Assembly: GCA_016926735.1 (NCBI GenBank)
Contig: JAFGOA010000080.1
Span: 1-64,000, forward strand
Direction of reading: 5' to 3'
Source: Promethearchaeota archaeon
Lineage (GTDB): Archaea > Asgardarchaeota > Lokiarchaeia > Sigyniarchaeales > SOKP01
DNA length: 64,000 nt
Below are positions 904 to 58,600 of this stretch, piece by piece. Within the stretch, counting starts at the first letter, position 1. Each line of letters begins with the position of its first letter. The notes beneath the pieces are model-generated. The model was given only the letters and a program-made list of their open reading frames with translations. It ran no database searches and was not told where the DNA came from. Both the position numbers and the translations under genes were made by a program.

Positions 904-2052
904 TTATATATTCGTTAATTCCTCTTGATATTTTAATATTTCATCATATGAAATATCATCATCAAACTTTATTTTTATTTGAATTCCTAAATACGCACAA
1001 GATAGGTTTGCTGCTGCTACAATCTCTGCTTTTTTAAGGGTAACTGAATATTCATCATTTGGATATTCATTTCCATTTGTTGGCAATGAATTTTTTTGAA
1101 ATTGGTTTTCATTGAGTCTAAAAGAACGTTCTGTTTTCATCTTATGAAGTAATGTGGCCATTTTATCAGCTACTAAAAAAGATAAATCATTTTTATTAAT
1201 TAATCTGGCAATATTATTTACATCAAAATAATTTAAACTTTCGAATTTACTTCTCAGATAATTTTTTAGATTTTCTGAATTCCGCTCACATTCAATTTCA
1301 GTCCAATCATGTATTGCTAATCTTCTTCTAAAAAATAATAATTCCCAATCTATTTCTATTTCTTTAAGTAATTCTAAAATTTTATCATCATTAGGTATTT
1401 TAGATTCTAAAACAATATATAATTGAAGACCATAATATTTATGTTCCTGTTGAAGATAAAAACCTCTTTGTTGCATAGACGCAAGAATTTTTAATTTTAG
1501 CGAAAATATATTTTCAGAAAGGTTTTTTCTACCACAACTTAAATAAATAACATTTCCTTCTTCACTGATATAATCACAATCAAGAAATCCTAAGATACTA
1601 TCAGTATTTTCTCCAATAAAATTTATTAATCCAGTTAGAGTAGGTTTCACATCAAATTTAATTAAATCATTTTCATCAATTGTCACATAATCTATTTTAC
1701 TTCCCCCAATTGCTAATTTAATTGAATTTAAAGAAAGTTCCTTCTCATCACCAAAGACCCTCTTTATTGCTTCATTAATAGGAAATACTTCTTCTTCTAA
1801 AATCTTGATATCTGCCATAGATGATTCATAAGGTTCTGGTTCAGTTAAAACTTTATTTAATATTGGGGCTTCTGAAGCATCTACTTCTATTTCATAATTT
1901 TTGGCTAGATCCTTACGGATAACACAATAAGAATGGTTTTTTTTATTATACATTGATAAAGAAGTATTTATATCAATCACTGCTCGAAATTTTTCAGTAA
2001 TTTTGCTTTCAGTCCTGTCTGACTTGGTTCTGCGTCGTCGCATTTTCTTCAA
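904..2052 (-). CDS. Uncharacterised 382-aa protein
   Basis: I do not recognise this protein. It is soluble-looking, with no signal peptide or membrane segment. The first 15 residues are very basic (MKKMRRRRTKSDR), which could be a nucleic-acid-binding tail. The body is mixed alpha/beta and rich in acidic residues, with a Cys pair around FLDCDYIS and YLSCGRK but no clear metal motif. A helical segment with charged residues (WELLFFRRRLAIHDWTE) lies past the middle. Codon use and A+T content match the neighbours, so it is probably a native gene. It converges on mch and shares no obvious operon. The ATG at the upper end follows an A+T-rich stretch compatible with a promoter. Confidence 0.7.
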   Translation of the reverse strand: MKKMRRRRTKSDRTESKITEKFRAVIDINTSLSMYNKKNHSYCVIRKDLAKNYEIEVDASEAPILNKVLTEPEPYESSMADIKILEEEVFPINEAIKRVFGDEKELSLNSIKLAIGGSKIDYVTIDENDLIKFDVKPTLTGLINFIGENTDSILGFLDCDYISEEGNVIYLSCGRKNLSENIFSLKLKILASMQQRGFYLQQEHKYYGLQLYIVLESKIPNDDKILELLKEIEIDWELLFFRRRLAIHDWTEIECERNSENLKNYLRSKFESLNYFDVNNIARLINKNDLSFLVADKMATLLHKMKTERSFRLNENQFQKNSLPTNGNEYPNDEYSVTLKKAEIVAAANLSCAYLGIQIKIKFDDDISYDEILKYQEELTNI

Positions 2053-2193
2053 ATAATTAACTTTAGTTCTCTATATTTAAATAAAAAACAAACTTTTATA
2101 TTCTTAACTAAACTATATTATAAATTTTCAATATATTAAAATAAAAGAATCTTAATGGAACATCAATGAGTTGTATTAAGGTTAAAAGAAAGA

Positions 2194-2370
2194 TTACAAT
2201 TCATCTTCAAGAAAATAATTTTCTCCTTTTTTAATATATACAATTTCAGAACCAAAATTGTTAAGAACTTTATATTTATCCCCTTGAATTTCTAAAATTT
2301 GTAATGAATAAGGTAATCTTCTTTTATCAATAATGTCTTTTATTATTGCTTTTTCTTCTTTGGGATCCAT
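2194..2370 (-). CDS. Small 58-aa hypothetical protein
   Basis: An ATG-started frame of 58 codons ending in TAA, starting MDPKEEKAIIKDIIDKRR. It lies upstream of, and on the same strand as, the unknown 382-aa gene. It has a natural composition: an N-terminal charged helix, then a probable small beta unit (YSLQILEIQG, YKVLNNFGSEIVYIKKG) ending in acidic residues. It reads like a compact alpha+beta domain rather than random A+T-rich translation, because charged and hydrophobic residues alternate and Lys/Asn homopolymers are few. No family is recognised. It may be co-transcribed with the downstream gene, about 140 bases away. Moderate confidence, as it is short and has no homology evidence. Confidence 0.5.
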   Translation of the reverse strand: MDPKEEKAIIKDIIDKRRLPYSLQILEIQGDKYKVLNNFGSEIVYIKKGENYFLEDEL

Positions 2371-2516
2371 AATATTTAGTTATGTTTACTCAAAAAAAAA
2401 ATTTACCAATTTAGAAAAAGTTCCATATACATGTAACTTTTTTAATTTTCCAAGATAAAAATGTACAAATTTGAATAAAATATTTAATTTTCATAAAATA
2501 TAAGACAAATGAAATT

Positions 2517-2589
2517 TTAATCTAAAATATTATAGGAATTTATCATTATTCCGAATTTTTAAAATTCGAATAATAGCATTTTAGATTAA
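2517..2589. repeat. Nested inverted repeat (stem-loop) upstream of the GT4 gene
   Basis: This lies in the 376-base gap 2371-2746. The outer arms are a perfect 12-bp inverted repeat: TTAATCTAAAAT at 2517-2528 and its complement at 2578-2589. Inside is a second inverted repeat, ATTATTC-C-GAATTTT at 2545-2559 with AAAATTCGAATAAT at 2561-2574, with one bulged C. A perfect 12-bp palindrome TAAGATATCTTA follows at 2593-2604. The rest of the gap is plain A+T-rich sequence with a TATA-like ATATATTTAAA near 2680 for the gene at 2747. The element could be a structured RNA, a terminator for the small minus-strand gene, or a DNA-level site. Confidence 0.5.
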
Positions 2590-2746
2590 TTTTAAGATAT
2601 CTTATCCCAAATCATTTGAAAATAAAAAAAGTTTGACTAAGATTATTAAAACAAAATTGAGGTTTTATTAAGATAGAAATATATTTAAACAAATCTATGT
2701 CTAGTTGAATTATATCTCGAAATTCAAAAAATTTTGGTAATTTATT

Positions 2747-43472: not shown

Positions 43473-43901
43473 ATGCCAAAAGGATTATATGCTGCACGAA
43501 AACTTAAAGCAAATAGAAAAAAGTTCCGTTGGTCAAAGACAAAATACAAAAGAAAAAAACTGAAACTAAAACAAAAAGTTGATCCTTTAGAAGGAGCACC
43601 TGCAGCTTCTGGAATCGTTTTAAAGAAGGTTGGAAGAGAAAGTAAACAACCTAACTCTGCAATTAGAAAATGTGTCCGAGTACAATTAAAGAAGAATGGT
43701 AAATCTATAACTGCTTCATTACCTGGAGATGGTGCTTTGAATTTTATCGAAGAACATGACAGAGTTATCGTTGAAGGAATCGGAGGTGCTAAAGGTAGAG
43801 CTGTTGGAGATTTACCTGGAGTACGATGGAAAGTGACTAAAGTTAATGGAGTCAGTCTTGATGCTTTAATAAAAGGTATTAAAGAAAAACCAATGAGATA
43901 A
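43473..43901 (+). CDS. rps12: Ribosomal protein uS12 (S12)
   Basis: Small-subunit decoding-site protein, 142 aa. Signatures are [55 protein letters not shown] and a basic N-terminal tail. It ends the polymerase-NusA-uS12 run. In most archaea uS7 follows directly; here uS7 is 14 kb further (57983), separated by signalling genes. Its upstream spacer of 213 bases holds A+T-rich, promoter-like sequence but no gene. Confidence 0.97.
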
Positions 43902-44112
43902 ATTTCTTTATTACAATTTCTAATTTTAAACCTATGTCATTATTATTTATATCTATAGAAGATTAAAATAATCCCTAATTTATTTCTAATAAAATTGATA
44001 TTCATCAAATGTGTTATTTTGGATATCCTATCTATTTTTTATAATAATTTAAATATTATGTTTAAGTTATATTTCATAATTAAAAGGCAATGTTTGGGAA
44101 ATAAATGATTTA

Positions 44113-45981
44113 ATGCCAATAAATTGGAATATAGAAGTAATTTCTGCTCTAATAGGTTTTTTTTTCTTTTTGGGATTTAGCTTGTTATTTCTATATCTAT
44201 CAATAAAAAATAAAAATAAGATTTATTTTTCATTGTTTTTTGTCTTTCTCATTTTTACATTCTTTCATATCCTTGAAGCAATGGCTTACCTTTTTCTCAA
44301 TTTTGAAATTAAACGTTTAAGTGCCATTATGTATTCATTAGGATTGTTTACATTAATACTAATCGTAGATTTCGTTTCTAAAGATAAAATAACTTTATGG
44401 AAAAGTATTTTATCAAGTTTTATAATAGGTTGCACTGTTGTATTAGCATTTATTCCAGAAAATATTGTTCTTTATAATCATGAAATCTTTGGATATCCAA
44501 CTTTAGCTTTTTCTGGGGTTTTAAATTATATTAATATTTTTGCATTATTCCTAGTTATATTTCAATTACTTCTATGGTTTTTTAAAGTATGGAAAAATTC
44601 TCCTTCTGAAATAAAAAACCAAGCATTTTTTCTTTTTATTATAGTCATAACCTTCTTTATTTCTATATTTATTATATATTTAACAGGTTTGTGGTTAATA
44701 TTCCCCCTAGGGTATCTTATTGCAGCAGGGTTAATCTCGATAATAATTGTATTTGTACTAAGATATCCAAAACTCTTACATATTTTATCATTTTCTACAT
44801 ATAGGATCATAGTAATTTCAAATATTTCTGGAAACCTATTATTTAATTTATCATGGAATCTTAAAAGTGAAAATCCTGATGAAGAACAAATAATACTTGC
44901 CAAATGGATACCAATTATCCAACACTTAGATATTAAATTCGATAATTCTATAAAAGTATCCGAAATAATACTTAAAAATAATATATTACATTTTAAACGT
45001 GGAGAATATATAACCGCCATTTTTCTCTCTAAAACATCTACTTTTGCCCTTAAAGATGTTTTAAATAACTTTGTTGAAGGTTTTGAGAAAAAATATAACT
45101 TATTGCTCAAAACAGGTATGGATAATAGCTCTTATTATTGTGATGCTATTGAATTAATCGATAAATTTTTTCCTTTAGGTATTATATCACCAATAAATTC
45201 TGATGATTCTTTAAGTAATTATTTGGAAGTTCTAATAAAACAGCGTACTGATAAATTAAAGAAATTAAGTCAAGAATATAAAGAAGCTAATAGATTAAAA
45301 TCACTCTTTATTGCTTCGATGAGTCATGAACTACGTACACCGCTCAATTCTATTATAGGGTTTTCGGAATTAATTCTCTCAGATCCTTTTAATCATTTGG
45401 ATGACACATTAAAGGATTATATCCAATGTATATCTGAAGAAGGGATCTATTTATTGGATCTAATAAATAGAATACTTGATATTTCTAAAATTGAAGCTGG
45501 AAAACTTGAAATATATCCTACTGAATTTGAATTAAAGGATCTAATAGAATCTATAACACAAATGTTATCAGTGAAAATCAAAGAGAAAAATTTAAAATTA
45601 ATCTATAAAATACCAGATTCTATAATTCTTTTTTCTGACATAAATAGAGTAAGACAAATTTTGATAAATTTGATTCAAAATGCAATAAAATTCTCAGATA
45701 AACCAGCTAATATAAAAATTGAAGTGGAATTAAAAGAAAAATTTGTAGAAATTCATATAATTGACTATGGAATAGGGATTTCAAAAAATAATCTTAATAA
45801 ATTATTTCAACCTTTTCAACAAATTGATATGTCTGACTCAAGAAAATATAGTGGTACTGGATTAGGTTTATATCTCTCTAAAAAGATTGTTAAGCTTCTT
45901 GGTGGAAAAATTTACGCTAAAAGTGAATTTGGTAAAGGAAGTGATTTTTATTTTACTATTTTAAAAGAACTTAAGTTTTAA
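44113..45981 (+). CDS. Membrane histidine kinase with 7TM-type N-terminus and longin-like middle domain
   Basis: Sensor kinase, 622 aa. Residues 1-225 have about seven transmembrane helices, resembling the 7TM histidine-kinase N-terminus. Residues about 230-355 (RIIVISNISGNLLFNLSWNL, then LKNNILHFKRGEYITAIFLS, then FVEGFEKKY) have the strand-strand-helix pattern of a longin/roadblock-like domain. The HisKA helix carries SMSHELRTPLNSIIGF with His405; HATPase motifs include RQILINLIQNAIKF, DYGIGIS and GTGLGLYLS. Domain order TM-longin-HisKA-HATPase is unusual. A response regulator lies convergently 9 bases from its stop and is a likely partner. First gene of the signalling island. Confidence 0.85.
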   Translation: MPINWNIEVISALIGFFFFLGFSLLFLYLSIKNKNKIYFSLFFVFLIFTFFHILEAMAYLFLNFEIKRLSAIMYSLGLFTLILIVDFVSKDKITLWKSILSSFIIGCTVVLAFIPENIVLYNHEIFGYPTLAFSGVLNYINIFALFLVIFQLLLWFFKVWKNSPSEIKNQAFFLFIIVITFFISIFIIYLTGLWLIFPLGYLIAAGLISIIIVFVLRYPKLLHILSFSTYRIIVISNISGNLLFNLSWNLKSENPDEEQIILAKWIPIIQHLDIKFDNSIKVSEIILKNNILHFKRGEYITAIFLSKTSTFALKDVLNNFVEGFEKKYNLLLKTGMDNSSYYCDAIELIDKFFPLGIISPINSDDSLSNYLEVLIKQRTDKLKKLSQEYKEANRLKSLFIASMSHELRTPLNSIIGFSELILSDPFNHLDDTLKDYIQCISEEGIYLLDLINRILDISKIEAGKLEIYPTEFELKDLIESITQMLSVKIKEKNLKLIYKIPDSIILFSDINRVRQILINLIQNAIKFSDKPANIKIEVELKEKFVEIHIIDYGIGISKNNLNKLFQPFQQIDMSDSRKYSGTGLGLYLSKKIVKLLGGKIYAKSEFGKGSDFYFTILKELKF

Positions 45982-45990
45982 TTATAACTT

Positions 45991-46353
45991 TTATAGATAT
46001 TGTCTCAGTTTTTCCTTAAAATCTAAAACTCTTATTGGTTTTGTGATATATTCATTAAAACCAGCATTTAATATTCGTACTTCATCACCTTTCATAGCAT
46101 AAGCAGTAACCGCAAGTATTGGGATAGATTTAAACCTTTCAATTTTTCTTAATTCTTGACAGATTTCTATCCCTGTCATCTTTGGTAACCTAATGTCAAG
46201 AATAATTAGATCAGGACTACCAGATTTTATAAGTTCTAATCCTAAATCGCCCTCCACTTCTTCAAAAACTTCTATTTCAGGAAATTGTTTCAGAATCGCC
46301 TTATATAATTTCATATTTTTTGGATCATCTTCAACAATATATACCTTTTTCAT
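45991..46353 (-). CDS. Single-domain response regulator (CheY-like)
   Basis: A receiver domain alone, 120 aa. Acidic pair near residues 8-10 (VEDD), phospho-acceptor Asp53 in LIILDIRLPKMTG, Thr in LAVTAYAMKGD, and Lys in YITKPI. The Asp, Lys and Thr sites are all intact. It has no output domain, so it presumably acts by protein contact or in a phosphorelay. By eye it is about two-thirds identical to the response regulator at 56493, at the other end of the same island, including ELRKIERFKS and GLELIKSG. It is convergent with the 7TM kinase. Confidence 0.94.
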   Translation of the reverse strand: MKKVYIVEDDPKNMKLYKAILKQFPEIEVFEEVEGDLGLELIKSGSPDLIILDIRLPKMTGIEICQELRKIERFKSIPILAVTAYAMKGDEVRILNAGFNEYITKPIRVLDFKEKLRQYL

Positions 46354-46590
46354 TTTTATAAACTCTGCAAATAGGAATTTATGGTATTTTTTAAGTATTA
46401 AACAAAAAGTAAGAAAAATTCTAATTATATAACTTTAAGTTTTATTGATAATTGCATTATCAGATTTTTGTTATAAATAATAGAATAATATAAGAGTATA
46501 GAATATTAAATTCAACTTTTATGATATATCTACATATTATTTTTATTTATTTCTACACAAATTTAAAAATTCTGAATTAATGTTATAATA

Positions 46591-48015
46591 ATGTCAAATT
46601 CATCAAAGACAATAATCAAGTATTTCTGTGATAGATTTTTAAACTTAGAATACTATCCTGAAAACATTAAAACCATTTTAGATCTTCCTTTAGACAAATT
46701 AAAAGATACAAAGAAAGAAGAAATTTCAATATTAAACAATATTAATATTAATACTATTCGAGATTTTGCTTCTATTGATATGTCAATTTATGATACATTG
46801 TTAGAGTCATCAACCCTTACTGAAAATACTTTAAAAAAGCTTTATATTGCATCAAAACTAATTGCAAATGCTTGGGGAAAAAGAACTACCTACCTTAAAA
46901 AACCTCAAATGAAAGTAATTGTTGCCGGTTTAGATTATGCTGGAAAAACTTCTTTAATCAATAGATTAATGAATGATTATAATTATAATGATGTAATTAA
47001 TTTAGAACCAACTGTTGGAGTTAATGTAGAAGAATTCAAATCAGAAAGATTAAATCTGATTCTATGGGATTTGGGAGGACAAAAAAATCATATTGATGAA
47101 TATCTTGAAGAACCTGAAAGATTTTTTATTCAAATGGATGTATTAATTTTCGTTATAGATTCCCAAGATGATGTAAGATATGATATAGCAATAAAATATC
47201 TTAATGATTTAATAGAAATTTTAGGATATTTAGATGAATTTCCTTTTATTCTTGTACTGCTAAACAAAGCCGATACTGATATAATAAATGATCCTGATTA
47301 TCAAATCAAATTGGAATATATTACTGAAAAAGTAACTGATTTATTCATAGAACATGAAAAATCATGGATTGTGGAAATTATTCCTACAAGTATATATAAT
47401 TTTTATTCTAATACCCCTGAAATTGCAAAAAATATTAAAAATATATTTTCAAAAGATATCAGTCAACAAAAAGACGATAAACTACCAGAAATTGAAAAAA
47501 AGGTGCAAAAAATACTAGATATAAATCTCCAATTTATGGATAAAATCTCAGCTGATCTTGCGGAAATAAAAAAGATTATGTTTAGAACACTACCAACGGC
47601 TATTTCGGGTTCATTATTTGAAGTTCCATTTCAAAAAGTTTCTTTTGAAGAGCAGCCTGAAAAAAAAAAGAAAAAGAAAAAACTAAAGCCATCCAAAAAA
47701 ACTTCTATCCCTCAAGTAATCCCTTCAATTAAATTACCCCAAAAAACTCAAACTACACTACTTGATCAAATAAAAAATGTCCAATTAAAACCTCCAGCTA
47801 TATCTTCTGATCCAAATAATCCCCCAATGGCCCCACCAAAAACTCAGAGAATTGAAGGATTGAATCCTCCACCAAAATCTACAGAAAAACTCACATCTAA
47901 ATTAGAAAGTTCTCAAGAATCAAATCAAGAACCCCCTATTAATCGTGCCCAAACAAGGCAACAAATAATATCAGAATTGAAAGATTTGTTTGTTAAAAGA
48001 GGTATTGTTGGATAA
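46591..48015 (+). CDS. Arf-like GTPase with N-terminal helical domain and C-terminal coiled coil plus Pro-rich tail
   Basis: A 474-aa protein. Residues 1-100 form a helical domain with a helix-hairpin-helix look (ILNNININTIRDFASIDM, LTENTLKKLYIASKLIANAW). The G domain (about 107-290) has G1 GLDYAGKTS (113-121), switch I LEPTVGVN, G3 WDLGGQKNH and G4 LNKAD, which is Arf/Sar-type. Residues about 300-360 are a coiled coil (PEIEKKVQKILDIN), then a poly-Lys stretch and Pro-rich disordered tail, ending with the short helix ISELKDLFVKRG. The last motif recurs at the end of the GTPase at 57022 (SQLKEIFVRK). The central signalling function is inferred; the N-terminal domain has not been seen by me in other GTPases. 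Confidence 0.88.
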   Translation: MSNSSKTIIKYFCDRFLNLEYYPENIKTILDLPLDKLKDTKKEEISILNNININTIRDFASIDMSIYDTLLESSTLTENTLKKLYIASKLIANAWGKRTTYLKKPQMKVIVAGLDYAGKTSLINRLMNDYNYNDVINLEPTVGVNVEEFKSERLNLILWDLGGQKNHIDEYLEEPERFFIQMDVLIFVIDSQDDVRYDIAIKYLNDLIEILGYLDEFPFILVLLNKADTDIINDPDYQIKLEYITEKVTDLFIEHEKSWIVEIIPTSIYNFYSNTPEIAKNIKNIFSKDISQQKDDKLPEIEKKVQKILDINLQFMDKISADLAEIKKIMFRTLPTAISGSLFEVPFQKVSFEEQPEKKKKKKKLKPSKKTSIPQVIPSIKLPQKTQTTLLDQIKNVQLKPPAISSDPNNPPMAPPKTQRIEGLNPPPKSTEKLTSKLESSQESNQEPPINRAQTRQQIISELKDLFVKRGIVG

Positions 48016-48295
48016 TAAAAAGACTTATATTGCCTAAAAAATCTATGAATGTACTCCATATATCATAATAGAATAATTTAATTGAAAGTTCTATAAAGAT
48101 TTTTTTTTTCTAACTTAATAGATTTAAACTAATCAAAATCAATATATGTTTATTTTCTACTTTATAGAGGAAGATATATTAACTAAATCTAATATAAATT
48201 AATTGTTAATCTTAAAATTATAATTACTAACCAAAAGAATTATTCTTAAGATATAAAAATAATAAAAATACCAAAAAACATAATAAAATCAAAAA

Positions 48296-48937
48296 ATGCA
48301 TTCATTCAATGAATTAAATGATCTTCTTGATAATTTACCTTTTATCGTTATAATTGGAAAATATGATCATATACTTGGTCCTAGAGCTATTTTCTCTCCA
48401 ATTAAGATCGTTGATGATCAATTTATACGAAATCTACTTCGCGATGCTTTAAATACAAAAAATAAATTTGTAATTCTTAATTATGATGATTTCTATTCTC
48501 AAGTATGTAAGGTAGATGTTAAGGATGAAACTGCAAGAGGGAAAAAACAACTATATGCTATTATCTTACTAAGGCATGTCGATTATCCATTGATCCCAAC
48601 GGTCTATTTTCAAAGGATCGAAATGATATTTAGAAAACTAGGGGAAAAAAAAATACTCATTGATGATGAATCCATTTTTAATAAATTTGCTGAGGAAATT
48701 CAAAATATTTATCTTGAGAAAAATGAAATAATTCCGCTAGAATCTGCAAATCTTGAAATCAGAAGTGAGATTAATACAATAAGGGGTTTTTGTGAATTAA
48801 TTCTTGAAGAAAAAGACAAATCAGGTAAATTATCTGATGATTTAGTAATAAGATATGTCGAAATTATATTAGATTCATGTGATGATATAATTGAAACAAT
48901 AGAAAAGAATATGCATAATCAATTACAGGGAAATTAA
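48296..48937 (+). CDS. Longin-like protein with C-terminal pseudo-HisKA (phospho-acceptor His replaced by Leu153)
   Basis: A 213-aa soluble protein. Residues 10-140 look longin-like: PFIVIIGKYDHILGPRAIF (strands), then RNLLRDALNTKNKFVI, YAIILLRHVDYPLIPTVYFQ and a helix. Residues 150-207 match the dimerisation helices of the kinases in this island position by position: NLEIRSEINTIRGFCELIL corresponds to SHELRTPLNSIIGFSELIL at 44113, and the second helix (IRYVEIILDSCDDIIETI) corresponds to the second kinase helix. At the phospho-acceptor site is Leu153 instead of His, and there is no ATPase domain. It probably pairs with kinases as a scaffold or decoy. The gene is 22 bases before a Rag-like GTPase and likely co-transcribed. 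Confidence 0.7.
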   Translation: MHSFNELNDLLDNLPFIVIIGKYDHILGPRAIFSPIKIVDDQFIRNLLRDALNTKNKFVILNYDDFYSQVCKVDVKDETARGKKQLYAIILLRHVDYPLIPTVYFQRIEMIFRKLGEKKILIDDESIFNKFAEEIQNIYLEKNEIIPLESANLEIRSEINTIRGFCELILEEKDKSGKLSDDLVIRYVEIILDSCDDIIETIEKNMHNQLQGN

Positions 48938-48959
48938 TTTAAATAAGTCAAATGTAAAA

Positions 48960-49853
48960 ATGACCAATAAAAAAAAAATCATATTAGTAGGTCCTCCTGC
49001 CGCGGGGAAGACTACAATAACAAAAGTATTTTTCCAAAAATCTAACCCTAAAATTTTATTGGAAAAACCTTTAGAACCAACGAGAGGTGTACATACATCA
49101 CTTTTTTCATTATTTAACTCAGAATTAGGAATCTTTGACTTGGCTGGACAAGAAAATCAAAACTGGTTTTCAAAAGATAATGATATTTTTGAACATTCTA
49201 ATATAATAACTTGTATTTTTGATATAAATAGTTCGTTAGAAAACATAACTTCATTTTTAAATAACATAATTGATATAAAAGCAAAATTTGATTCCCTCTC
49301 AGAGTGCAAAATATTTAGTTTTCTCCATAAGATTGACACTGTAGACAATTCATACTTAAATGAGAAAATTAATGCAATTAAAAATTATTACAAAAGAAAA
49401 TTTCCTTCTAATGGATTTTATATGGAAATATTTGGCACTTCTATTGCTAAAGAAAATTATTATCCTACATTTCATATTCTTTCAAACATATTAATTTCTA
49501 TTTATCCAGAGGATAATGCATCAATAAATTTGTCTGAATATGAAAATATAAAACAAGATCTAAAAATTATTGCAAATTGTAAATTATCTGTTAAATATAA
49601 GGTTCTTAATCTCTCGAATAAATTTAATCTTAGTTTTGATGTTCTTAAATTCCATTTAGAGAGATTAGATAAGCTAGGAATGATTGAATATTTATCATAT
49701 AAGAATTTTATTCGATTAACTTATAGAAGTGAATTATTAAAAAAAGATCTAAAAAAAGAAATCGATGATATGGATAAAATCAGGGAAGATAATGATATTA
49801 AACTTTTCAATATTTTTCTAAATCTTAATAAAATCCCTTTATCAGATTTTTAA
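48960..49853 (+). CDS. Rag/Gtr-like GTPase with C-terminal winged helix
   Basis: A 297-aa protein. G1 is GPPAAGKTT (residues about 11-19), switch I is PLEPTRGVHTS, G3 is DLAGQENQNW, and G4 is HKID, the HKxD form of Rag/Gtr GTPases (instead of NKxD). The C-terminal part (residues about 195-297) lacks the usual roadblock domain and instead has CKLSVKYKVLNLSNKFNLS and LKFHLERLDKLGMIEYLSY, a winged-helix pattern with recognition helix and wing, followed by a charged tail helix. The fusion suggests DNA, RNA or protein binding regulated by GTP. It follows the longin/pseudo-HisKA gene by 22 bases. Confidence 0.85.
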   Translation: MTNKKKIILVGPPAAGKTTITKVFFQKSNPKILLEKPLEPTRGVHTSLFSLFNSELGIFDLAGQENQNWFSKDNDIFEHSNIITCIFDINSSLENITSFLNNIIDIKAKFDSLSECKIFSFLHKIDTVDNSYLNEKINAIKNYYKRKFPSNGFYMEIFGTSIAKENYYPTFHILSNILISIYPEDNASINLSEYENIKQDLKIIANCKLSVKYKVLNLSNKFNLSFDVLKFHLERLDKLGMIEYLSYKNFIRLTYRSELLKKDLKKEIDDMDKIREDNDIKLFNIFLNLNKIPLSDF

Positions 49854-50020
49854 CTTTTAATAACTCAAAAAAAATAATTAGAATTCAAAATCCATACTAA
49901 GGTTAAGTAAATTTAAATTTGACACCTTTTATAATTATGACAAAAGCATATAATAATAAATATATTGCTTTTAAACCCCAAAGATAAAAAAAAAAATTCT
50001 AAATAGAAGATAAAATTCTT

Positions 50021-52255
50021 ATGAACATTAATATTGTTAAAATTCTTTCAATTTTAGATCATATTGAAATTTTAGATTATATAAGAACAATTTTAAATTC
50101 TTCAAATAGATTCAATTATGAACTTTTTAGTTGTAATTCAATTAAAAAAGGAATGGATTTTATATCGAATTATCAGATAGATATAATAATTCTAGGATTA
50201 TATCTTCTTGATAGTAATGGATTTGAAACATTTTATAATCTAAGATTAAAAACAAGAAATATACCTATAATTCTTATAGTTTCTCAAGAAGATGAAGGAA
50301 TAGCAAAAAATGCTGTTCAATTAGGTGCCCAAGAGTATTTAATTCAAGAACAAATAAATCCAGAATTACTGGAACATTATATTTTTACAGCAATTACTAG
50401 ACATAATATGATGCTCACAATTGAATCTTTAGCTAATAAAATTCAAGAAAATGAACAATATTTAAAACAGATTATAGAAAAAAACATTGATTCAATTATA
50501 ATCACAGATAAATGTGGTAAAATTCGTTATGTAAATCCATCAGCTGAAAAACATTTTAATAAAACCAAGGAGGAATTGTTAGGACAATTATTTAAAGATT
50601 CTTCATTTAAGGAGAGAAAAATAGGTTTCAATATTATTCAAAATAATGAACTTACATCAATTTCAGAGGTCCACACTGTAGAGATAGAATGGGAAGGGCA
50701 ACCCGCATATTTTTTCTCAATAAGAGATATTTCAGAACGTAAACAAATTGAGCATATGTTAAAAGAATCTGAAAAAAAATATACTCTTTTATTCGAGAAA
50801 TCACCTCATCCTATATTAATTTTAAATTTAGAAGGTTTTATAATAGATAGTAATTCTGTAGTAGAAGAATTGATTGGATTTTCAAAAAGCCAGATTATTA
50901 ATCAAAGATATGAAAATCTAATTCTATTTCCAAAACAATATCTCCATGTTTTTAATATGATTTTTAATGCTCTAAAAGAAAATAAAATTCCTGATCCTTT
51001 AATTTTGAATATAAATAGAGAATTTAAAAAAGATCTATGGCTCAATATGAATTTTTCATTAATTAATTTAGATAATCAAAAGTTAATTTTCCTTTTAATT
51101 CAAGATATTACTGAAATACGACAATCAAAACAAGAAGTAAGAATACTTGAGCAAACTTTGCATGAAATGAATGCTCTAATAGAAAATGCTCCTTCAGCTA
51201 TTTTTTTACTACATCAAAATGGAAAAATATTAAGAGCGAATAATAAATCAAAAGAATTATTTGGTTATGAAGAAGAAGAATTTCTTAATTCTAAAATTTT
51301 GGATCTGTTTGATCCCGAATATTTAGAAATTGTAAAAAAACACTATACAAATGATATTTATGAATCATTAAAAGATAACTCTTTAGAAGCAAAAATCATA
51401 AAAAAAAATGGAGAATTTATCAATGTAGATATAGTATCAAATATCATAAAAATTGCTGATAATATAATAATACAATCATTTATTTCTGATATAACCTCAA
51501 GAAAAGATTTCGAAAGAAGTAGAGAACAATTATTGGATCAATTGATAAAATCTCTTGAGTATAAATCAAAATTTTTTGCTGCGATGTCACATGAATTGAG
51601 AACTCCTCTGAATGCAATCATAGGATTTTCGACATTATTAATTGATGGAGGATATGGTGTATTAAATGATGATCAAAAGGATTATTTAAACGATATATAT
51701 ACTGCTGCTGAGCATTTAAATGGATTAATTAATTCTATATTAGATCTCTCAAAAATTGAAATTGCTAAATTTAAATTAGAAAAAGAAGAATTTCAATTAT
51801 ATCCCATCATGCAACAAATTCATTCAATATTTAAACCCATCTATATGAAAAAAAAATTATATTTTAATTTGGAAAATGTTGATCAACATACTGTAATATT
51901 TGGAGACCAAATGAGATTCAGACAAATACTTTATAATTTAATTGATAATGCTATAAAATTTACAAGTAAAGGTGGTATAGAGGTAAAGGGATTCGAAAAA
52001 TATGATCATTGGGAATTTCAAATTATAGATTCTGGTGTTGGGATTGATAAAGAAGATTATGATGTTGTTTTTAGAGAATTTGGGAGGATTGAAAATGATC
52101 TTACCAAAGATGTAAGTGGTTCTGGCATTGGATTAGCTTTAACTAAAAGGTTAGTTGAACTTCATGGTGGAGAAATATGGTTTGAAAGTCAAAGAGGAAA
52201 AGGAACTACATTTTATTTTACGATTCCAAAAAAAAAAGGTGATAATCATAAATAG
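50021..52255 (+). CDS. PAS-domain hybrid histidine kinase with degenerate receiver
   Basis: A soluble 744-aa kinase. Residues 1-125 are receiver-like but the phospho-acceptor is Gly59 (IDIIILGLYLLDSNGFETF) and the conserved Lys is Gln (YLIQEQ), so it is a pseudo-receiver. Three PAS domains follow (about 150-240, 250-370, 380-495: for instance GKIRYVNPSAEKHF, GFIIDSNSVVEELIGF, GKILRANNKSKELFGYEEEE). HisKA contains AMSHELRTPLNAIIGF with His524; HATPase contains RQILYNLIDNAIKFT, DSGVGIDKED and GSGIGLALTKR. No transmembrane segment, so cytoplasmic sensing is likely. It overlaps the start of the next kinase by 17 bases. Confidence 0.92.
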   Translation: MNINIVKILSILDHIEILDYIRTILNSSNRFNYELFSCNSIKKGMDFISNYQIDIIILGLYLLDSNGFETFYNLRLKTRNIPIILIVSQEDEGIAKNAVQLGAQEYLIQEQINPELLEHYIFTAITRHNMMLTIESLANKIQENEQYLKQIIEKNIDSIIITDKCGKIRYVNPSAEKHFNKTKEELLGQLFKDSSFKERKIGFNIIQNNELTSISEVHTVEIEWEGQPAYFFSIRDISERKQIEHMLKESEKKYTLLFEKSPHPILILNLEGFIIDSNSVVEELIGFSKSQIINQRYENLILFPKQYLHVFNMIFNALKENKIPDPLILNINREFKKDLWLNMNFSLINLDNQKLIFLLIQDITEIRQSKQEVRILEQTLHEMNALIENAPSAIFLLHQNGKILRANNKSKELFGYEEEEFLNSKILDLFDPEYLEIVKKHYTNDIYESLKDNSLEAKIIKKNGEFINVDIVSNIIKIADNIIIQSFISDITSRKDFERSREQLLDQLIKSLEYKSKFFAAMSHELRTPLNAIIGFSTLLIDGGYGVLNDDQKDYLNDIYTAAEHLNGLINSILDLSKIEIAKFKLEKEEFQLYPIMQQIHSIFKPIYMKKKLYFNLENVDQHTVIFGDQMRFRQILYNLIDNAIKFTSKGGIEVKGFEKYDHWEFQIIDSGVGIDKEDYDVVFREFGRIENDLTKDVSGSGIGLALTKRLVELHGGEIWFESQRGKGTTFYFTIPKKKGDNHK

Positions 52256-55022
52256 CAGTAAATATAGTATTCAAGATATTTTTAGTTCTTTTTTAGATAA
52301 TTCTTTAGATATAATTTATATATTTGATATTAATGGGAAATTTATTGATATTAATGATATTGCTTTAAAATTATTTGAATATAATAGAGAAGAGCTCTTT
52401 AATAAATCTTTTGTAGAAATATTGGATAAAGGACAAGATGAAAAATTTTTTACTCTATTAGACAATCTCAAAGCTAATGTTAAAAAATCCAATTATATAA
52501 ATTATAAAGTTAACACTAAGAATGGTAATATTATATTATTAGATACATATACTATACCGATAATGAATAATAATCTCATAGCAATTATCAATATATCTAA
52601 GATTATATCCAATAAAGATCATATTTATAAAGATTCTAATAGACATGAATTTAATTTTAGCAATATTTTTGATCATATTCCTGTTGGATTTCATTTATAC
52701 TCATTAAACGCAAAAGATCAATTAATTTTAAAAGATTCAAATCCCGCAGCTAATGAAATTCTTGGGATTGACTCCTCAAAATTACTATTAAAACCAATTG
52801 AAGAAATATTTATTTCCTATAAAGAATCCGATATTCTTAAAAGATATATAAACATTGCTAAAAATGGTGGTATAGAGAAATGGGATCATATTGAATATCA
52901 CCTTGATGCTATTGAAGGAGCATATGAAATAATTGCATTCCAATCATCTCCAAATAATATAGTAGTTTCTTTTGTAGATATAACTAAACGAATAACATAT
53001 GAAAAAAAATTAGAGGAATCTGAATCAGAATTACGTAATTTATCTGAAGAATTGGAAAATAAAATTTCGAGAAGAACAAAAGAATTATATGAATCAGAAG
53101 AATTATATAGAAATCTATTTGAGAACATCCCTAATGCTATTATTCTAATGGATATGAATAAAAATTTTCTAATAACAAATCCTGCATTTAATAAAAATTT
53201 TGGTTATAAAGGAGATGAGTTTATTGGCAAAAATATACAAGAAAATTGTTTTTGCACAGAACCATCTTTAAAAAAAATCTCTGACTCATTATTAAAAATA
53301 GAAAAAGATAAGAAACCAGTAATGTTTGAAGCAGAAATATATAGAAAAGATAATACTATAGCAAAGATTTTTGTTCAATTAAATCTAATTGAATTTGAAG
53401 AATTAGAGTTAATATTACTCATTATACAAGATATTTCCAATTTAAAATTTGAACAAGAAAAAGCTAAACTATATTTAGAAACTGCAGGTGTTATAATTGT
53501 AGCTTTAGATAAAAAAGGTAATATTAATTTACTAAATAAAAAGGGTTGTGAAGTATTAGAATACGAACAAAATGAACTAATTGGTAAAAATTGGTTTAAT
53601 AATTGCATTCCTATAAATTACAGAGATAAAATAAAAAAAATTTTTGAAGATATTATTGAAAATAAGAATGTAAATATAGAATTTTATGAGAGTCCTATTA
53701 TTTCTAAAAGTGGTAAAGAAAAGATTATAGCATGGCATAATACCATTCTATATGATAATAATAACGACGTTTTAGGAACATTGAGTTCTGGAGAAGATGT
53801 AACTGAAAGAAAAAAAATGGAAGTAGAATTAAGAGAATCAGAAATTATATACCGTAAATTATTTGAATCACATATTGATGGAATTATTATGATGGATCTT
53901 AATGGAATGTTTATCGATGCTAATAAAACTTTCTTAGATATGAGCGAATATAAATTAGCACAATTAAAAAAATTCTCTATTTTTGATATAACACCAGAAA
54001 AATGGTATGATGATATAAAAACTATAATAGATAGTAAATCTAAAACATTGTCTAGAGAATTCGATATAGAACTTAAGAAAGAAAATGGAACTATCATTCC
54101 AATTAATTTAAAATTATGGACAAAAACTGATATATATAATGAACCTTCTGGTTTCTGGGCTATTATAAGAGATATTTCAAAAAAAAAACAAGATGAATTA
54201 TTACAAATAGAATTTAGGAAACGTTTAGAAAAAGAAGTTAAAAAAAGGACAAAAGAACTCAATAAAGCTTTAGAAAAACAAAGATTATTTCAATCAGAGA
54301 TTATTAAAGCTTCTAAATTCAAATCTGAGTTTCTCGCTACTATGTCACATGAATTAAGAACACCATTAAATGCAATAATTGGATTTACAGAATTAATGTT
54401 AGATGAATCATTTGGTACATTAAACAAAGAACAGTATGAATATATGATGGATATAAAAACCTCCGCTGAACATCAATATGATATGATAAGTAGCATTCTA
54501 AATATTACTCAAATAGAATCAGGTCAAGTAATTCTAAATAAACAACAATTTTCTATAAATACTATCATTGATCAAGTTATATCTACAATCAAACCTATGT
54601 ATACAAAAAAAAAAATACAATTTATCGTTGAAGGATTGGAATCAGATATAAAAATATTAGCTGATCCTTTAAGAATAAGAGAAATACTCATTAATCTATT
54701 AACTAATGCAATAAAGTTTACAATCGAAGGGAAAGTCAAATTAATTATTAAAGAATTATTTGATAAATGGGTTTTTAAAGTAAGAGATGAAGGAATCGGA
54801 ATCGCTCAAGAAGATTTTGATATTATTTTTCGAGATTTTTCAAGAGTTGATTCTGCTTATGTAAGATCTACGCCAGGTACAGGATTGGGACTTTCTTTAA
54901 CAAAAAGATTAGTTGAATTACATAATGGAACAATAAATTTTACGAGTGTTTTAGGAGTAGGGACAACTTTTACATTTACTATTCCCAAACCTTCAGAAGA
55001 ATACGATTTAGATTCCTATTAA
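52239..55022 (+). CDS. Multi-PAS histidine kinase
   Basis: A soluble kinase of 928 aa from the GTG at 52239, which overlaps the previous stop by 17 bases (translational coupling); the longer reading from 52155 would overlap by 100 bases and is less likely. Five PAS domains are visible in order: DINGKFIDINDIALKLFEYN, the EFNFSNIFDHIPVGF region, FENIPNAIILMDMNKNF, VIIVALDKKGNINLLNKKG, and IDGIIMMDLNGMFIDANK. HisKA has TMSHELRTPLNAIIGF with His704 (from the GTG). HATPase has REILINLLTNAIKF, DEGIGIAQED and GTGLGLSLTKR. No membrane segment. Part of a two-kinase operon with the previous gene. It is convergent with the longin-Rag-roadblock gene. Confidence 0.93.
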   Translation: MIIINSSKYSIQDIFSSFLDNSLDIIYIFDINGKFIDINDIALKLFEYNREELFNKSFVEILDKGQDEKFFTLLDNLKANVKKSNYINYKVNTKNGNIILLDTYTIPIMNNNLIAIINISKIISNKDHIYKDSNRHEFNFSNIFDHIPVGFHLYSLNAKDQLILKDSNPAANEILGIDSSKLLLKPIEEIFISYKESDILKRYINIAKNGGIEKWDHIEYHLDAIEGAYEIIAFQSSPNNIVVSFVDITKRITYEKKLEESESELRNLSEELENKISRRTKELYESEELYRNLFENIPNAIILMDMNKNFLITNPAFNKNFGYKGDEFIGKNIQENCFCTEPSLKKISDSLLKIEKDKKPVMFEAEIYRKDNTIAKIFVQLNLIEFEELELILLIIQDISNLKFEQEKAKLYLETAGVIIVALDKKGNINLLNKKGCEVLEYEQNELIGKNWFNNCIPINYRDKIKKIFEDIIENKNVNIEFYESPIISKSGKEKIIAWHNTILYDNNNDVLGTLSSGEDVTERKKMEVELRESEIIYRKLFESHIDGIIMMDLNGMFIDANKTFLDMSEYKLAQLKKFSIFDITPEKWYDDIKTIIDSKSKTLSREFDIELKKENGTIIPINLKLWTKTDIYNEPSGFWAIIRDISKKKQDELLQIEFRKRLEKEVKKRTKELNKALEKQRLFQSEIIKASKFKSEFLATMSHELRTPLNAIIGFTELMLDESFGTLNKEQYEYMMDIKTSAEHQYDMISSILNITQIESGQVILNKQQFSINTIIDQVISTIKPMYTKKKIQFIVEGLESDIKILADPLRIREILINLLTNAIKFTIEGKVKLIIKELFDKWVFKVRDEGIGIAQEDFDIIFRDFSRVDSAYVRSTPGTGLGLSLTKRLVELHNGTINFTSVLGVGTTFTFTIPKPSEEYDLDSY

Positions 55023-55037
55023 ATTTTATTTTATTAT

Positions 55038-56339
55038 TTATTTTGATTTTTTTCTTAAATAATAATAATCATTAATTTTTCTTCTTATTTTTCCCATAAG
55101 AATAATTAGTTTGTTCACATCCATTGATTCTGAAATCAAGATTAAATTTTTGATTGAAAATTTTTGAAGATTAAGATAATTTAAAATAGTATTAATTGAT
55201 TTTGAGCTTGAAATTATAAGATGTGCTATATTATCATTTAAAACCATATTTTCAAATGATTGAGTTATCTGTGCTATCATTTTATGAATATGATTTATTA
55301 AGATCGTATTAAAATCTCTTGACATAGATTGTATTATTATTGAATTGTTATTATTTGTGATATAACACATAGATTTTGGAGTATTAATAAAAGATTCATC
55401 TAGTATTTTTTTTATCTCAAAAGAATCTTCAGAAAAATTACTAATAATACTATAAAAAGCGTTGTAAAGATTATATATTAATTTTGGATATATACTTGTA
55501 AAATATATTAAACCATTAAAATCTTTTTTAATCTCTTGAAGTACGTTATCTCTTTTATTTTCCTCTATTAAATCTATTTTATGAAGAAAAAGGATAAATT
55601 CAACTTTATTATTTTGATTCTTTATTATATTCCTGATTTTTTCTATGTCTGTGAATATCATTTTTTTTTGAGAATTCCATAAAGATACATCAAAAAGATA
55701 TATAACTATATCTGTATTTTCAAATGCTAAAGTCTGTTCCATTGTTTCATCATTAAGTAGATCTTCAATTTCCTGACCGGAGGTATCAAATAAACCTAAT
55801 TTTGCATCTAACCAAGAATAAACTGAAGGTGTAATCCCTCGAGTTGGTTCTAATGGATTATATAATAATTTTCTTGGATCTTTTCCCTCAAATATTATTT
55901 CTTTGATAGTACTTTTACCAGTTCCAGCCCTTCCCAAAAGTAATATTTTTTGTGCTGTTCTTTTTTGAAAAAATTTATCCATATTATCATAGAAAAACCT
56001 TTTTCTTTCTTCTCTATGTTTGCTAAACAATGCTTTCCCGAAATCTAGGAGATCTTGTTTTAATTTATATATATTTTCCTTTTCTATATCTTCAATAACA
56101 ATAACAATAACTTCATATCCTACCTGTGCTACTCTATTTTTATCACAATAGCTAATAATCGTTTGATTATTAAAAGTTACTTCAAGTAATTCTTCTTTAT
56201 TAAAATCTTCATTAAAGGCGTGGGACATATATATTTTTTGGGTTAAAGAGTTTGAAATATCAAATCTTTCTGGATATTTTAAATCTAAAATAGACCCAAT
56301 TTTTTGATCCCAAATAAAGACAGCAATACCTTCAGGCAT
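55038..56339 (-). CDS. Longin-GTPase-roadblock protein (Rag/Gtr-like)
   Basis: A 433-aa single chain with three parts. Residues 1-105 have a longin-like pattern (GIAVFIWDQKIGSILDLKYP, TIISYCDKNRVAQVGYEVIVIVIE, then a helix LKQDLLDFGKALF). Residues 130-310 are the G domain: G1 GRAGTGKS (136-143), switch I PLEPTRGITPS, G3 DTSGQEIED (185-193), G4 HKID (Rag/Gtr form). Residues about 315-430 look like a roadblock/LC7 domain (SMCYITNNNNSIIIQSMSR, LINHIHKMIAQITQSFENMV, IKNLILISESMDVNKLIILM). Eukaryotic Rag GTPases have a G domain plus roadblock CRD, and longin/roadblock regulators as separate proteins; here all are fused. It is on the strand opposite the kinases. Confidence 0.85.
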   Translation of the reverse strand: MPEGIAVFIWDQKIGSILDLKYPERFDISNSLTQKIYMSHAFNEDFNKEELLEVTFNNQTIISYCDKNRVAQVGYEVIVIVIEDIEKENIYKLKQDLLDFGKALFSKHREERKRFFYDNMDKFFQKRTAQKILLLGRAGTGKSTIKEIIFEGKDPRKLLYNPLEPTRGITPSVYSWLDAKLGLFDTSGQEIEDLLNDETMEQTLAFENTDIVIYLFDVSLWNSQKKMIFTDIEKIRNIIKNQNNKVEFILFLHKIDLIEENKRDNVLQEIKKDFNGLIYFTSIYPKLIYNLYNAFYSIISNFSEDSFEIKKILDESFINTPKSMCYITNNNNSIIIQSMSRDFNTILINHIHKMIAQITQSFENMVLNDNIAHLIISSSKSINTILNYLNLQKFSIKNLILISESMDVNKLIILMGKIRRKINDYYYLRKKSK

Positions 56340-56492
56340 ATAATAGTGGTTCTCCTTAGTAAAGATATAAATAAATAATACTTCAATTTATATATAAACG
56401 TATGTAATAAAACATGATTAAAGTTCTAATACATCTATATTAAAATAAAGTTAAATATTCAAATCATTTCATAATTATTTAGAGGTTTATTA

Positions 56493-56864
56493 ATGACTAA
56501 AAATGTATATGTTATTGAAGATAATGAAAAGAATATGAAATTATTCAAAGCTATCTTAAATTTAATTCCTAACATTCAAATCTTTACAGAAACTCAAGGA
56601 GATTCAGGATTAGAACTTATAAAATCAGGTAATCCTGATCTTATTATTCTTGATATTCAATTACCCAAATTGAGTGGGATTGATATAACAAAGGAATTGA
56701 GAAAAATTGAAAGGTTTAAATCTGTTCCAATTATCGCTGTGACTTCTTTTGCTATGAAAGGTGATAGAGAAAGAATTCTTAAGGCAGGAATAGATCAATA
56801 CATATCAAAACCTATAAAAGTACAAGAATTTCGAGAAAAAGTTACTGAAATTTTAAAAATATAA
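56493..56864 (+). CDS. Single-domain response regulator (CheY-like)
   Basis: Receiver domain alone, 123 aa. Intact Asp54 (LIILDIQLPKLSG), Thr/Ser region IAVTSFAMKGD, and Lys in YISKPI. A paralogue of the regulator at 45991 with long shared stretches (ELRKIERFKS, GLELIKSG, PDLIILDI), and a little longer at the C-terminus. The two copies flank the island in opposite orientation, consistent with duplication within the island. Partner kinases are probably those at 50021 and 52239. An Arf-like GTPase follows after about 150 bases. Confidence 0.94.
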   Translation: MTKNVYVIEDNEKNMKLFKAILNLIPNIQIFTETQGDSGLELIKSGNPDLIILDIQLPKLSGIDITKELRKIERFKSVPIIAVTSFAMKGDRERILKAGIDQYISKPIKVQEFREKVTEILKI

Positions 56865-57021
56865 TCATATATATATTATCTAAAGAGATAAAAATTAATT
56901 ATAATTAAATTGGAATAGTACAATTTTATAATGAATTCCTTACATATAAATAATTTTAATAGATTTTAATAGTAAATCTATTAATATAATTAAAATTAAA
57001 TTTAAAAAAAACTTGGTTAAT

Positions 57022-57822
57022 ATGGAACAAAAAATAATTGTTTTGGGTTTAGATAATGCTGGAAAAACTTCCTTATTGTCTAGATTCGGAGGAACTTTAG
57101 GAATAGACGAACTTGCATCTTTAGAACCTACTAGAGGCGTAATTAGAAGAGAAATTGATACAAAAGATATGAGGTTCTTTATATGGGATTTTGGAGGTCA
57201 GGAAGATCATAGGATCCAATATATACAAGATCCTGAACATTATTTTATAGGAATAGATTTAATTATATATATTATTGATATAAAAGATGATAAAAGATAT
57301 AATGAAAGCATTTCTTATCTTGAAAAGATATTAAACCTCGTGAAAAAAATGGGTCAAAATAGATATATCCTTATCTTTATACATAAATGTGATCCTGAAA
57401 TTAAGGGTAAAAAAGAAACTATTTCTAATATTGATTTTTTGAAAAAATCTATAGAACCCCTTCTAATTGAAAAAGATTTTGAATATGAGATTTTTCTAAC
57501 TTCTATATACTCTGGATTCCCAAAAGAACCAAAATTTGTAAATTTAGTAAAGCAAATTATCGATGGTCAACCAATTAAAGATGGAACTGTCGATTTAAAA
57601 TTAAATCGAATGGCAGAAGTTTTAGAATCAACGATGAACGCTGTGATTAAAATTAGTTCGAATATAATGGACATCGAGGATAGGATAAGAAATATTGAAA
57701 AATCCACCGTATATAGCAATAAAAAATTGCCTGAGATTGATTCAAAAATTAAAGATATGGAAACCCTGAAAAATAATACAATATCACAATTAAAAGAAAT
57801 TTTTGTTCGAAAAGAAGAATAA
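57022..57822 (+). CDS. Arf-like GTPase with C-terminal coiled coil
   Basis: A 266-aa protein from the ATG at 57022 (a TTG three codons upstream is possible). G1 is GLDNAGKTS, near-identical to eukaryotic Arf; switch I is LEPTRGVIRRE; G3 WDFGGQEDH; G4 FIHKCD. No N-terminal myristoylation-type Gly2 is visible. After the G domain a coiled coil (residues about 200-255) ends with TISQLKEIFVRKEE, a motif very like the end of the GTPase at 46591. It follows the response regulator and precedes uS7, being the last gene of the island. The role is inferred to be regulatory, in the same system as the island's other GTPases. Confidence 0.9.
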   Translation: MEQKIIVLGLDNAGKTSLLSRFGGTLGIDELASLEPTRGVIRREIDTKDMRFFIWDFGGQEDHRIQYIQDPEHYFIGIDLIIYIIDIKDDKRYNESISYLEKILNLVKKMGQNRYILIFIHKCDPEIKGKKETISNIDFLKKSIEPLLIEKDFEYEIFLTSIYSGFPKEPKFVNLVKQIIDGQPIKDGTVDLKLNRMAEVLESTMNAVIKISSNIMDIEDRIRNIEKSTVYSNKKLPEIDSKIKDMETLKNNTISQLKEIFVRKEE

Positions 57823-57982
57823 TATAATCCGACTTTTTTTTATTTAAAAGAGATTAAAAAAAAGATTTAAAAAATATAAAAAAACATCAAATCTATTATT
57901 TTTTAATTTAAATCCATAAAAAATTAAAATAATCAAATATTTTTCATCTTAATTATTTTATTATGATTTTTGTTGTACTAAT

Positions 57983-58600
57983 ATGAGTGAAAAAGAAAAC
58001 GATATCAAATTATTAGATCGATGGTCTTATGATGATGTTGAGATCAAAGATTGGACACTTGAGAGATATATTAATTTAAAAAAAATTATCATACCTCACT
58101 CATGTGGAAGACATGAAAAAAAGACTTTTTGGAAAACTTCAAAAGTATCAATCATAGAGAGATTTGTTAATCGATTATTATCTCCTGGATTTATAGCAAC
58201 CAAAACTAAAGGACGTAAGAGTTCTTATCATCAAGGTAAAAAAAGTCTTATTTTAAAGACAGTAATGAATGCTTTCATTCTTATAGAATTGAAAACAGGT
58301 AAAAATCCTATTCAAGTATTGGTTGATGCAATTTCAAATACTGCTCCACGAGAAGAAATTACAAGAATTGCAATGGGAGGTATATCATATAGCTCTGCTG
58401 TAGATATTGCTCCTCAAAGACGTATAGACTTAGCAATTAAATATTTAGTCCAAGCTATAGGTACATCTGCTCATGGAAATATTAGAACTTTTGAAGAAGC
58501 AATAGCTCAAGAATTAATTCAAGCGGCTAAAAACAGCCAAGATTCAAAAGCTGTTAAAAAGAAGGATGAAATCGAGAGAATTTCCTTATCTGCAAGGTAA
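57983..58600 (+). CDS. rps7: Ribosomal protein uS7 (S7)
   Basis: Small-subunit protein, 205 aa including an N-terminal extension of about 25 residues. The core begins LKKIIIPHSCGRHEKKTFWK and continues with SIIERFVNRLLSPG, KTVMNAFILIELKTGKNP, then APREEITRIAMGGISY and IDLAIKYLVQAI, all diagnostic. In most archaea uS7 follows uS12 and precedes EF-1A; here uS12 is 14 kb upstream and EF-1A does not follow. ATG start after an A+T-rich gap. Confidence 0.96.
   Translation: MSEKENDIKLLDRWSYDDVEIKDWTLERYINLKKIIIPHSCGRHEKKTFWKTSKVSIIERFVNRLLSPGFIATKTKGRKSSYHQGKKSLILKTVMNAFILIELKTGKNPIQVLVDAISNTAPREEITRIAMGGISYSSAVDIAPQRRIDLAIKYLVQAIGTSAHGNIRTFEEAIAQELIQAAKNSQDSKAVKKKDEIERISLSAR

Follow-up and report, generated by a model that had tools for sequence, protein, structure and literature searches.

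A relocated cluster of histidine kinase, response regulator and Rag/Arf-type GTPase genes between uS12 and uS7 in a Lokiarchaeial genome, with a proposed link between two-component and GTPase signalling

The genes for ribosomal proteins uS12 and uS7 in a Promethearchaeota archaeon of the class Lokiarchaeia (assembly GCA_016926735.1; 3.88 Mb, 238 contigs) are separated by 14,084 bp, and ten signalling open reading frames occupy positions 44113–57822 of the window, the 64,000 nt stretch of contig JAFGOA010000080.1 that was analyzed. The same gene set is found at other loci in relatives, and represents a patchy accessory module of Lokiarchaeia. Between uS12 and uS7 lies a copy of this conserved module that has been relocated. 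It is quite possible, if at somewhat less than an even chance, that the module couples two-component phosphorylation to Rag/Arf-type GTPases in the manner proposed below, with the protein LonHK as the adaptor. The mixing of bacterial-type sensor kinases and eukaryote-like GTPases in one gene set suggests a direct link between both signalling worlds.

From left to right, the interval encodes the histidine kinase HK1 (44113–45981, + strand), with about seven predicted transmembrane helices, a 130-aa domain, HisKA and HATPase_c; the single-domain response regulator RR1 (45991–46353, − strand); ArfA (46591–48015, + strand), an Arf/Rag-like GTPase with an N-terminal helical extension, a low-complexity tail and intact G1–G4 motifs; and LonHK (48296–48937, + strand), in which a longin-like domain is followed by a HisKA-like pseudo-DHp (residues ~143–210). 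The Gtr1/RagA-type GTPase RagA (48960–49853, + strand) starts 22 bp after LonHK, and is followed by the kinases HK2 (50021–52255, + strand; REC, PAS repeats, HisKA and HATPase_c, no predicted transmembrane helix) and HK3 (52155–55022, + strand; four PAS, HisKA and HATPase_c), which overlaps the end of HK2 and whose true start may lie anywhere from 52155 to 52231. The remaining genes are LonRag (55038–56339, − strand), with a longin-like domain, a Rag/Gtr GTPase and a C-terminal roadblock-like domain, the single-domain regulator RR2 (56493–56864, + strand), and ArfB (57013–57822, + strand), an Arf/Rag-like GTPase with a C-terminal coiled tail. Three histidine kinases, two single-domain regulators and four Arf- or Rag/Gtr-like GTPases had been named in an earlier, sequence-only reading of this DNA, and Pfam and a motif check recovered them all. 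HisKA and HATPase_c were matched in each kinase, with an extra N-terminal REC in HK2, while LonHK matched Folliculin weakly. The HELRTPLN, N, G1 and G2 boxes are intact in the three kinases, as are the Asp, Thr and Lys residues of RR1 and RR2, and the P-loop, DxxGQ and (N/H)KxD motifs are present in all four GTPases, along with the shared LEPT(R/V)G motif that had been pointed out. Gtr1_RagA and Arf are the best Pfam matches of these GTPases. The regulators had also been called duplicates, and RR1 and RR2 do form an inverted duplication of 393 nt with 72% DNA identity; compared with PDB sequences only, the best match of RR2 is DivK (E = 1e-29). By Pfam, none of the island proteins has a DNA-binding output domain, and at E 0.01 none of the ten matches a Robl_LC7 or CvnC-type domain.

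The sequence-only reading had allowed that the island might be unique, its genes scattered in relatives, but the set recurs in about 25 Lokiarchaeia, often with its order kept. Within a class sample of 83 Lokiarchaeia genomes, strong matches to LonHK occur in 26, usually as a single copy and always in genomes of the taxonomic order to which the window belongs, and none were found in the remaining ~145 Asgard genomes of the phylum sample; all named relatives of LonHK belong to Candidatus Lokiarchaeota or Prometheoarchaeum. Its neighbors are RagA, paired kinases, LonRag, Arf-like GTPases, RR2-type regulators and a second Rag gene of ~510 aa (Rag510) that is present in relatives' clusters and not in the window. 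The commonest adjacencies are kinase–kinase and LonRag–Rag510 (16 genomes each), followed by divergent LonRag/regulator and RagA–kinase pairs (12 each), and LonHK and RagA are co-directional in 14 genomes with a median gap of 28 bp. Full-length LonRag and LonHK co-occur within the family of the window, with both present in 20 genomes, only one in four (3 + 1) and neither in 41 (Fisher p = 1e-12; the table was read by hand and one fragment at a contig end scored as present). Gene order is preserved across genera, and in the sister species (G022) the same order is split over two small contigs. Relatives of ArfA are found in most clusters, and HK1 is accessory, with close relatives in four other genomes. 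A random pile of paralogues is ruled out by this conserved linkage. It is a different matter whether two unrelated signalling sets share a hot spot that tolerates paralogue expansion, with the kinases and regulators not wired to the GTPases; genes of these kinds abound in Lokiarchaeal genomes (this one has 71 Arf-profile matches), and cluster size and the number of kinases and regulators vary, but the single chain of LonHK contains both a longin-like domain and a DHp of kinase origin, and the order of LonHK, RagA and the kinases persists across genera and through relocation, which leaves the hot spot an improbable explanation. The combined two-component and small-GTPase system envisaged earlier therefore stands as one module, by co-occurrence and conserved order; its wiring we infer.

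In many relatives the cluster is flanked on one side by an amidohydrolase-like gene (AmH) and on the other by a coiled-coil gene, beyond which are roadblock and SDR genes; this locus (L099 4664–7700; L104 10241–10804; L105 12050–12391) is its usual site. This site is empty, with its neighbors adjacent, in cluster-less genomes (G052, G055, G056, G030 and G042), and it is also empty in G028, where the cluster lies elsewhere, and in the sister species. In this genome (G000) only 88 bp separate AmH from the coiled-coil gene on contig C140, with nothing between them, and the cluster has therefore been relocated. A Robl_LC7-family gene adjoins the ancestral site, outside the island. In two other genomes a lone regulator-like remnant is left at the empty site, which points to past loss. 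The distances of LonHK and LonRag track those of AmH (r 0.59 and 0.42; p 0.0005 and 0.008, respectively), and recent transfer from outside is not favored, since both follow this chromosomal gene. Viral carriage was rejected, LonHK being absent from viral contigs. The simplest history is one of vertical descent with repeated loss and relocation.

The uS12 and uS7 genes are normally neighbors, as the sequence-only reading had stated, with a spacing of 310 bp or less in 70 of the 75 scoreable class genomes. They lie on one strand within 40 bp of each other in 51 genomes of the 83-genome class, are 41–700 bp apart in 12 (the widest at 303 bp), and are on separate contigs in three. A divergent arrangement with 146–206 bp between the genes is found in seven genomes (G014, G015, G016, G017, G018, G023 and G030) and represents an inversion of the otherwise conserved pair. 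Spacings above 700 bp are seen only in this genome and in the distant G004 (49 kb). Comparison of this interval between genomes and scoring of co-occurrence had both been suggested as checks; gene families of the cluster do co-occur, and their usual site is elsewhere. In the class survey this genome alone has the cluster placed between uS12 and uS7, and the idea of a conserved insertion there was rejected.

Both flanks of the island are well preserved. The uS12 gene (43473–43901, + strand) is 96% and the uS7 gene (57983–58600, + strand) 93% identical to that of the sister species, and the 73 bp leader or promoter region of uS7 (57910–57982, + strand) is nearly identical in the two, so that uS7 has retained its own upstream region after the insertion. 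The uS12–uS7 spacer of the sister species is 303 bp and gene-free (L025 756–1058); it is long for the family, weakly resembles the region upstream of HK1 (1/300 shuffles), and is possibly an excision scar. Arrival of the cluster at this position may have come before or after the split from the sister species. An imperfect 46 nt direct repeat is present at the island edges (43928–43973 and 57889–57934) but is weak, as 8 of 500 shuffles were equally good, and a target-site duplication is not claimed. Nor does Pfam detect a transposase or integrase among the island genes, and a mobile element was rejected. The placement could also be an artefact of assembly or binning, the module being real but located elsewhere in the genome, given that the assembly consists of 238 contigs and that uS12 and uS7 are contiguous in the sister species. 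Such an error would require two clean false joins flanking an intact cluster, yet both junctions are intergenic, the uS12 tail and uS7 leader are intact, the window contains no N, and the ancestral site in this genome is contiguous and empty. In addition, the island proteins are mostly 71–85% identical to collinear pieces of the sister species (HK3 and part of RagA/HK2 are lower). A chimera is an unlikely source of the island position, and the artefact as a whole has only a very slight chance of being correct.

LonHK had been described as a longin/pseudo-HisKA protein, and its predicted structure and alignments agree with both halves of that description. The AlphaFold2 (AF2) model of LonHK, made with 23 orthologues, shows a longin-like alpha/beta domain that is followed by a pair of long C-terminal helices. 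The top Foldseek matches are GATOR1/KICSTOR and FLCN complexes (NPRL2 and FLCN structures; prob 1.00, E ~2e-4), followed by histidine-kinase DHp structures, and Pfam Folliculin was matched weakly in all 23 orthologues (best E 1.9e-4), while a PDB sequence search with LonHK gave only spurious CheY matches. Judged by the predicted structure, the domain is a longin fold. The loop at residues 77–83, between predicted strands 66–76 and 84–94 (beta4/beta5), holds D77, A80, R81 and G82, all invariant (23/23). The sequence of human FLCN chains in the PDB is KDSLARGFQRWYSII, and a gap-free alignment puts R164 opposite R81 of LonHK; the FLCN sequence D160-x-x-A-R164-G (KDSLARG) matches D77-x-x-A-R81-G of LonHK. 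A catalytic arginine in the beta4–beta5 loop is a proposed signature of DENN/longin GTPase-activating proteins (GAPs) (PMC12803157), and Arg147 of SMCR8 sits in the active site of ARF1 (PMC8213707). As modeled, LonHK looks like a folliculin-type GAP domain fused to a dead kinase domain.

In hhalign, the C-terminus of LonHK aligns with the HisKA domains of the cluster's own kinases at prob 90 and E 1.5e-6; the H-box falls in register and NxIxGFxxL is preserved, while a control with the longin domain gave E 0.12. None of the 23 orthologues has the phospho-accepting histidine, its position being taken by L, M, I or V, whereas all 58 kinases have H. This hairpin is, on the alignment, a HisKA-homologous DHp with the phospho-His replaced. 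A mere coiled dimerization element with a convergent likeness to HisKA is a more distant prospect, to which we give a small chance: Pfam HisKA matches only 10 of the 23 members, at a best E of 0.006 and below cut-off, but the in-register alignment far exceeds its control, and histidine-kinase structures with LOV domains are among the Foldseek matches.

With these features a pathway can be proposed, in which the kinases, HK1 at the membrane and HK2 and HK3 with their PAS domains, would autophosphorylate and pass phosphate to the DivK-like regulators RR1 and RR2. A phosphorylated regulator would then dock on the phosphate-dead DHp of LonHK, as DivK~P does on DivL, and docking would set the activity or dimer state of the folliculin/NPRL2-type longin domain. 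Arg81 of LonHK would serve as an arginine finger for RagA, encoded next to it, and for LonRag and the Arf-like GTPases, and the output of the module would be GTPase state rather than transcription. The regulator-to-LonHK step is proposed because of the DivL precedent, where a repurposed transmitter (DHp) without the histidine senses DivK~P without phosphotransfer (PMC4211667), and stand-alone REC proteins are common in archaea and act via protein contacts (PMC5847659). The step from LonHK to the GTPases is proposed because of the FLCN-type loop and the LonHK–RagA gene pair. In its strongest form, a His-Asp phosphorelay would directly gate a folliculin/GATOR1-type longin GAP for Rag/Arf GTPases in an archaeon, so that arginine-finger longin GAPs would predate eukaryotes, and one adaptor would wire prokaryotic phosphosignalling to the GTPase machinery by which eukaryotes regulate TORC1 and membrane traffic; this we think rather unlikely, although well worth considering.

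Several observations weigh against this pathway. The AF2 model of LonHK is of moderate quality (pLDDT 81, pTM 0.63), and its Foldseek and Pfam scores are modest (E ~1e-4 to 1e-3). Known longin GAPs either form heterodimers of longin proteins or use a DENN domain, and LonHK has no DENN domain, its longin domain being followed by the helical hairpin alone. It also lacks HATPase_c (the CA domain), which DivL retains. Three of the four GTPases carry an arginine beside the switch I threonine (LEPTRG), which makes a self-supplied arginine a real alternative, and the numbers of kinases and regulators vary widely between clusters, so the kinase–regulator pairing is not fixed. A different wiring would make LonHK a dimer scaffold or guanine nucleotide exchange factor (GEF), similar to MglB or Ragulator and with no GAP activity, the kinases forming mixed DHp bundles with it so that coupling needs no regulators. 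Longin and roadblock proteins are often dimeric GTPase platforms or GEFs (PMC10933270), DHp domains dimerize and the H-box of LonHK matches the cluster's own kinases, and in conservons no response regulator takes part, the kinase acting together with a roadblock protein and a GTPase (PMC4316618). The invariant ARG loop, however, is hard to explain in a pure scaffold, and regulator genes recur in the clusters; this wiring is considered unlikely, but it would be no great surprise.

A longin-like domain had been read in a kinase, a GTPase and the pseudo-kinase, and this applies to LonRag and LonHK, while the kinase HK1 gave no profile match. LonRag matches Gtr/Rag in Pfam (5.6e-19) and RagA/Gtr1 in Foldseek over ~310 columns (E 1e-12), and its predicted monomer model has a roadblock-like order of strands and helices after residue 320; as modeled, it is a longin, a Rag G domain and a C-terminal roadblock. 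No invariant arginine is present in the equivalent loop of its longin, so the arginine loop is not general to the longins of the cluster. Residues 222–355 of HK1 have a strand/helix pattern plausible for a longin, with the fold unproven (possibly longin/roadblock-like), and this 130-aa domain has no profile match to the LonHK or LonRag longins and no relevant Pfam match. A common longin family for all three was rejected, as there is no profile similarity. The seven-helix part of HK1 and its 130-aa module (44113–45260; L119–L143) belong to a large Lokiarchaeal family without a Pfam name, with 11 matches in this genome, that occurs in stand-alone (~360 aa), ~440 aa or kinase-fused forms. Folliculin-profile matches were found in 88 of 228 Asgard genomes (40 of them pass the curated cut-off), while 14 control prokaryotes gave no match; some of the matches are fused to Arf-like GTPases, and an [A/S]-R-G loop is common to nine of nine aligned Asgard Folliculin-type examples (D-x-x-(A/S)-R-G). 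On these counts the arginine-loop longin is a broad Asgard family, with LonHK as its two-component-linked version. Two further arrangements were observed: in this genome, a 470-aa fusion of a Folliculin-type longin and an Arf-like GTPase, encoded by ORF 1261–2673 (+ strand) of L159 (G000:C197:17500-20800; also L151–L158), that is conserved across Lokiarchaeia, and Lokiarchaeal proteins of 336–354 aa (L144–L147) that combine an ARG-loop longin with a Ras-like GTPase domain.

Eukaryote-like GTPases number in the dozens in Asgard genomes, and according to published work their GAPs and GEFs are hard to assign, as the genes generally do not share operons with their regulators (PMC10933270). The conserved linkage in this cluster points to candidate partners, RagA for LonHK and LonHK for the response regulators, and to R81 as the one residue of interest. 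A working arginine loop would mean that the longin-GAP mechanism of FLCN, NPRL2 and SMCR8 predates eukaryotes, and a functional role of the dead DHp would show a route from two-component input to Ras-superfamily switches. The folliculin-type arginine loop, the DivK-like regulators and the relocation are additions to the sequence-only reading.

That reading knew of no description of such a system, and literature searches, with most subscription journals outside their scope, also found none of this gene set, nor of an arginine-loop longin family or a two-component version of it. The broader novelty does not stand, as coupling of kinases to small GTPases is already known in bacteria, in conservons (PMC13343842, PMC4316618) and in Frz/RomR-MglA (PMC3441718), and longin–GTPase fusions are known in Asgards, where a GTPase between longin and roadblock domains, like LonRag, was described in MK-D1 (PMC10933270). 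According to the same study, small-GTPase genes of Asgards do not as a rule share operons with longin or roadblock genes, whereas here a conserved cluster joins them, together with two-component genes. The island contains intact histidine kinases; compared with conservons (AGPS, CvnA-D), it has no CvnC or MglB-type (CvnB) protein, carries Rag/Arf-type rather than MglA-group GTPases, includes response regulators, combines longin and pseudo-DHp in the one chain of LonHK, and occurs in Lokiarchaeia rather than Actinomycetota. In the Frz/RomR-RomX-MglA/MglB system of Myxococcus, a regulator likewise links a kinase pathway to a small GTPase and roadblock regulator (PMC3441718), but the island lacks Che-type proteins, has other GTPase families, and would use LonHK rather than RomR as the coupling protein. 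DivK-DivL-CckA of Caulobacter also pairs a DivK-like single-domain regulator with a kinase relative in which the phospho-His is replaced (PMC4211667), although LonHK has a longin-like domain in place of the CA domain and PAS repeats, and a GTPase rather than a kinase is its putative output. With the eukaryotic longin GAPs (FLCN-FNIP, GATOR1 NPRL2, C9orf72-SMCR8 and DENN GAPs), LonHK shares the longin-like domain, D-x-x-A-R-G at the arginine-finger position and putative Rag/Arf substrates, but it has neither a DENN domain nor a known longin partner, is fused to a pseudo-DHp, and is a putative GAP. The feature that distinguishes the cluster from conservons and Frz-MglA is a single adaptor with a eukaryote-type longin-GAP signature and a dead histidine-kinase domain.

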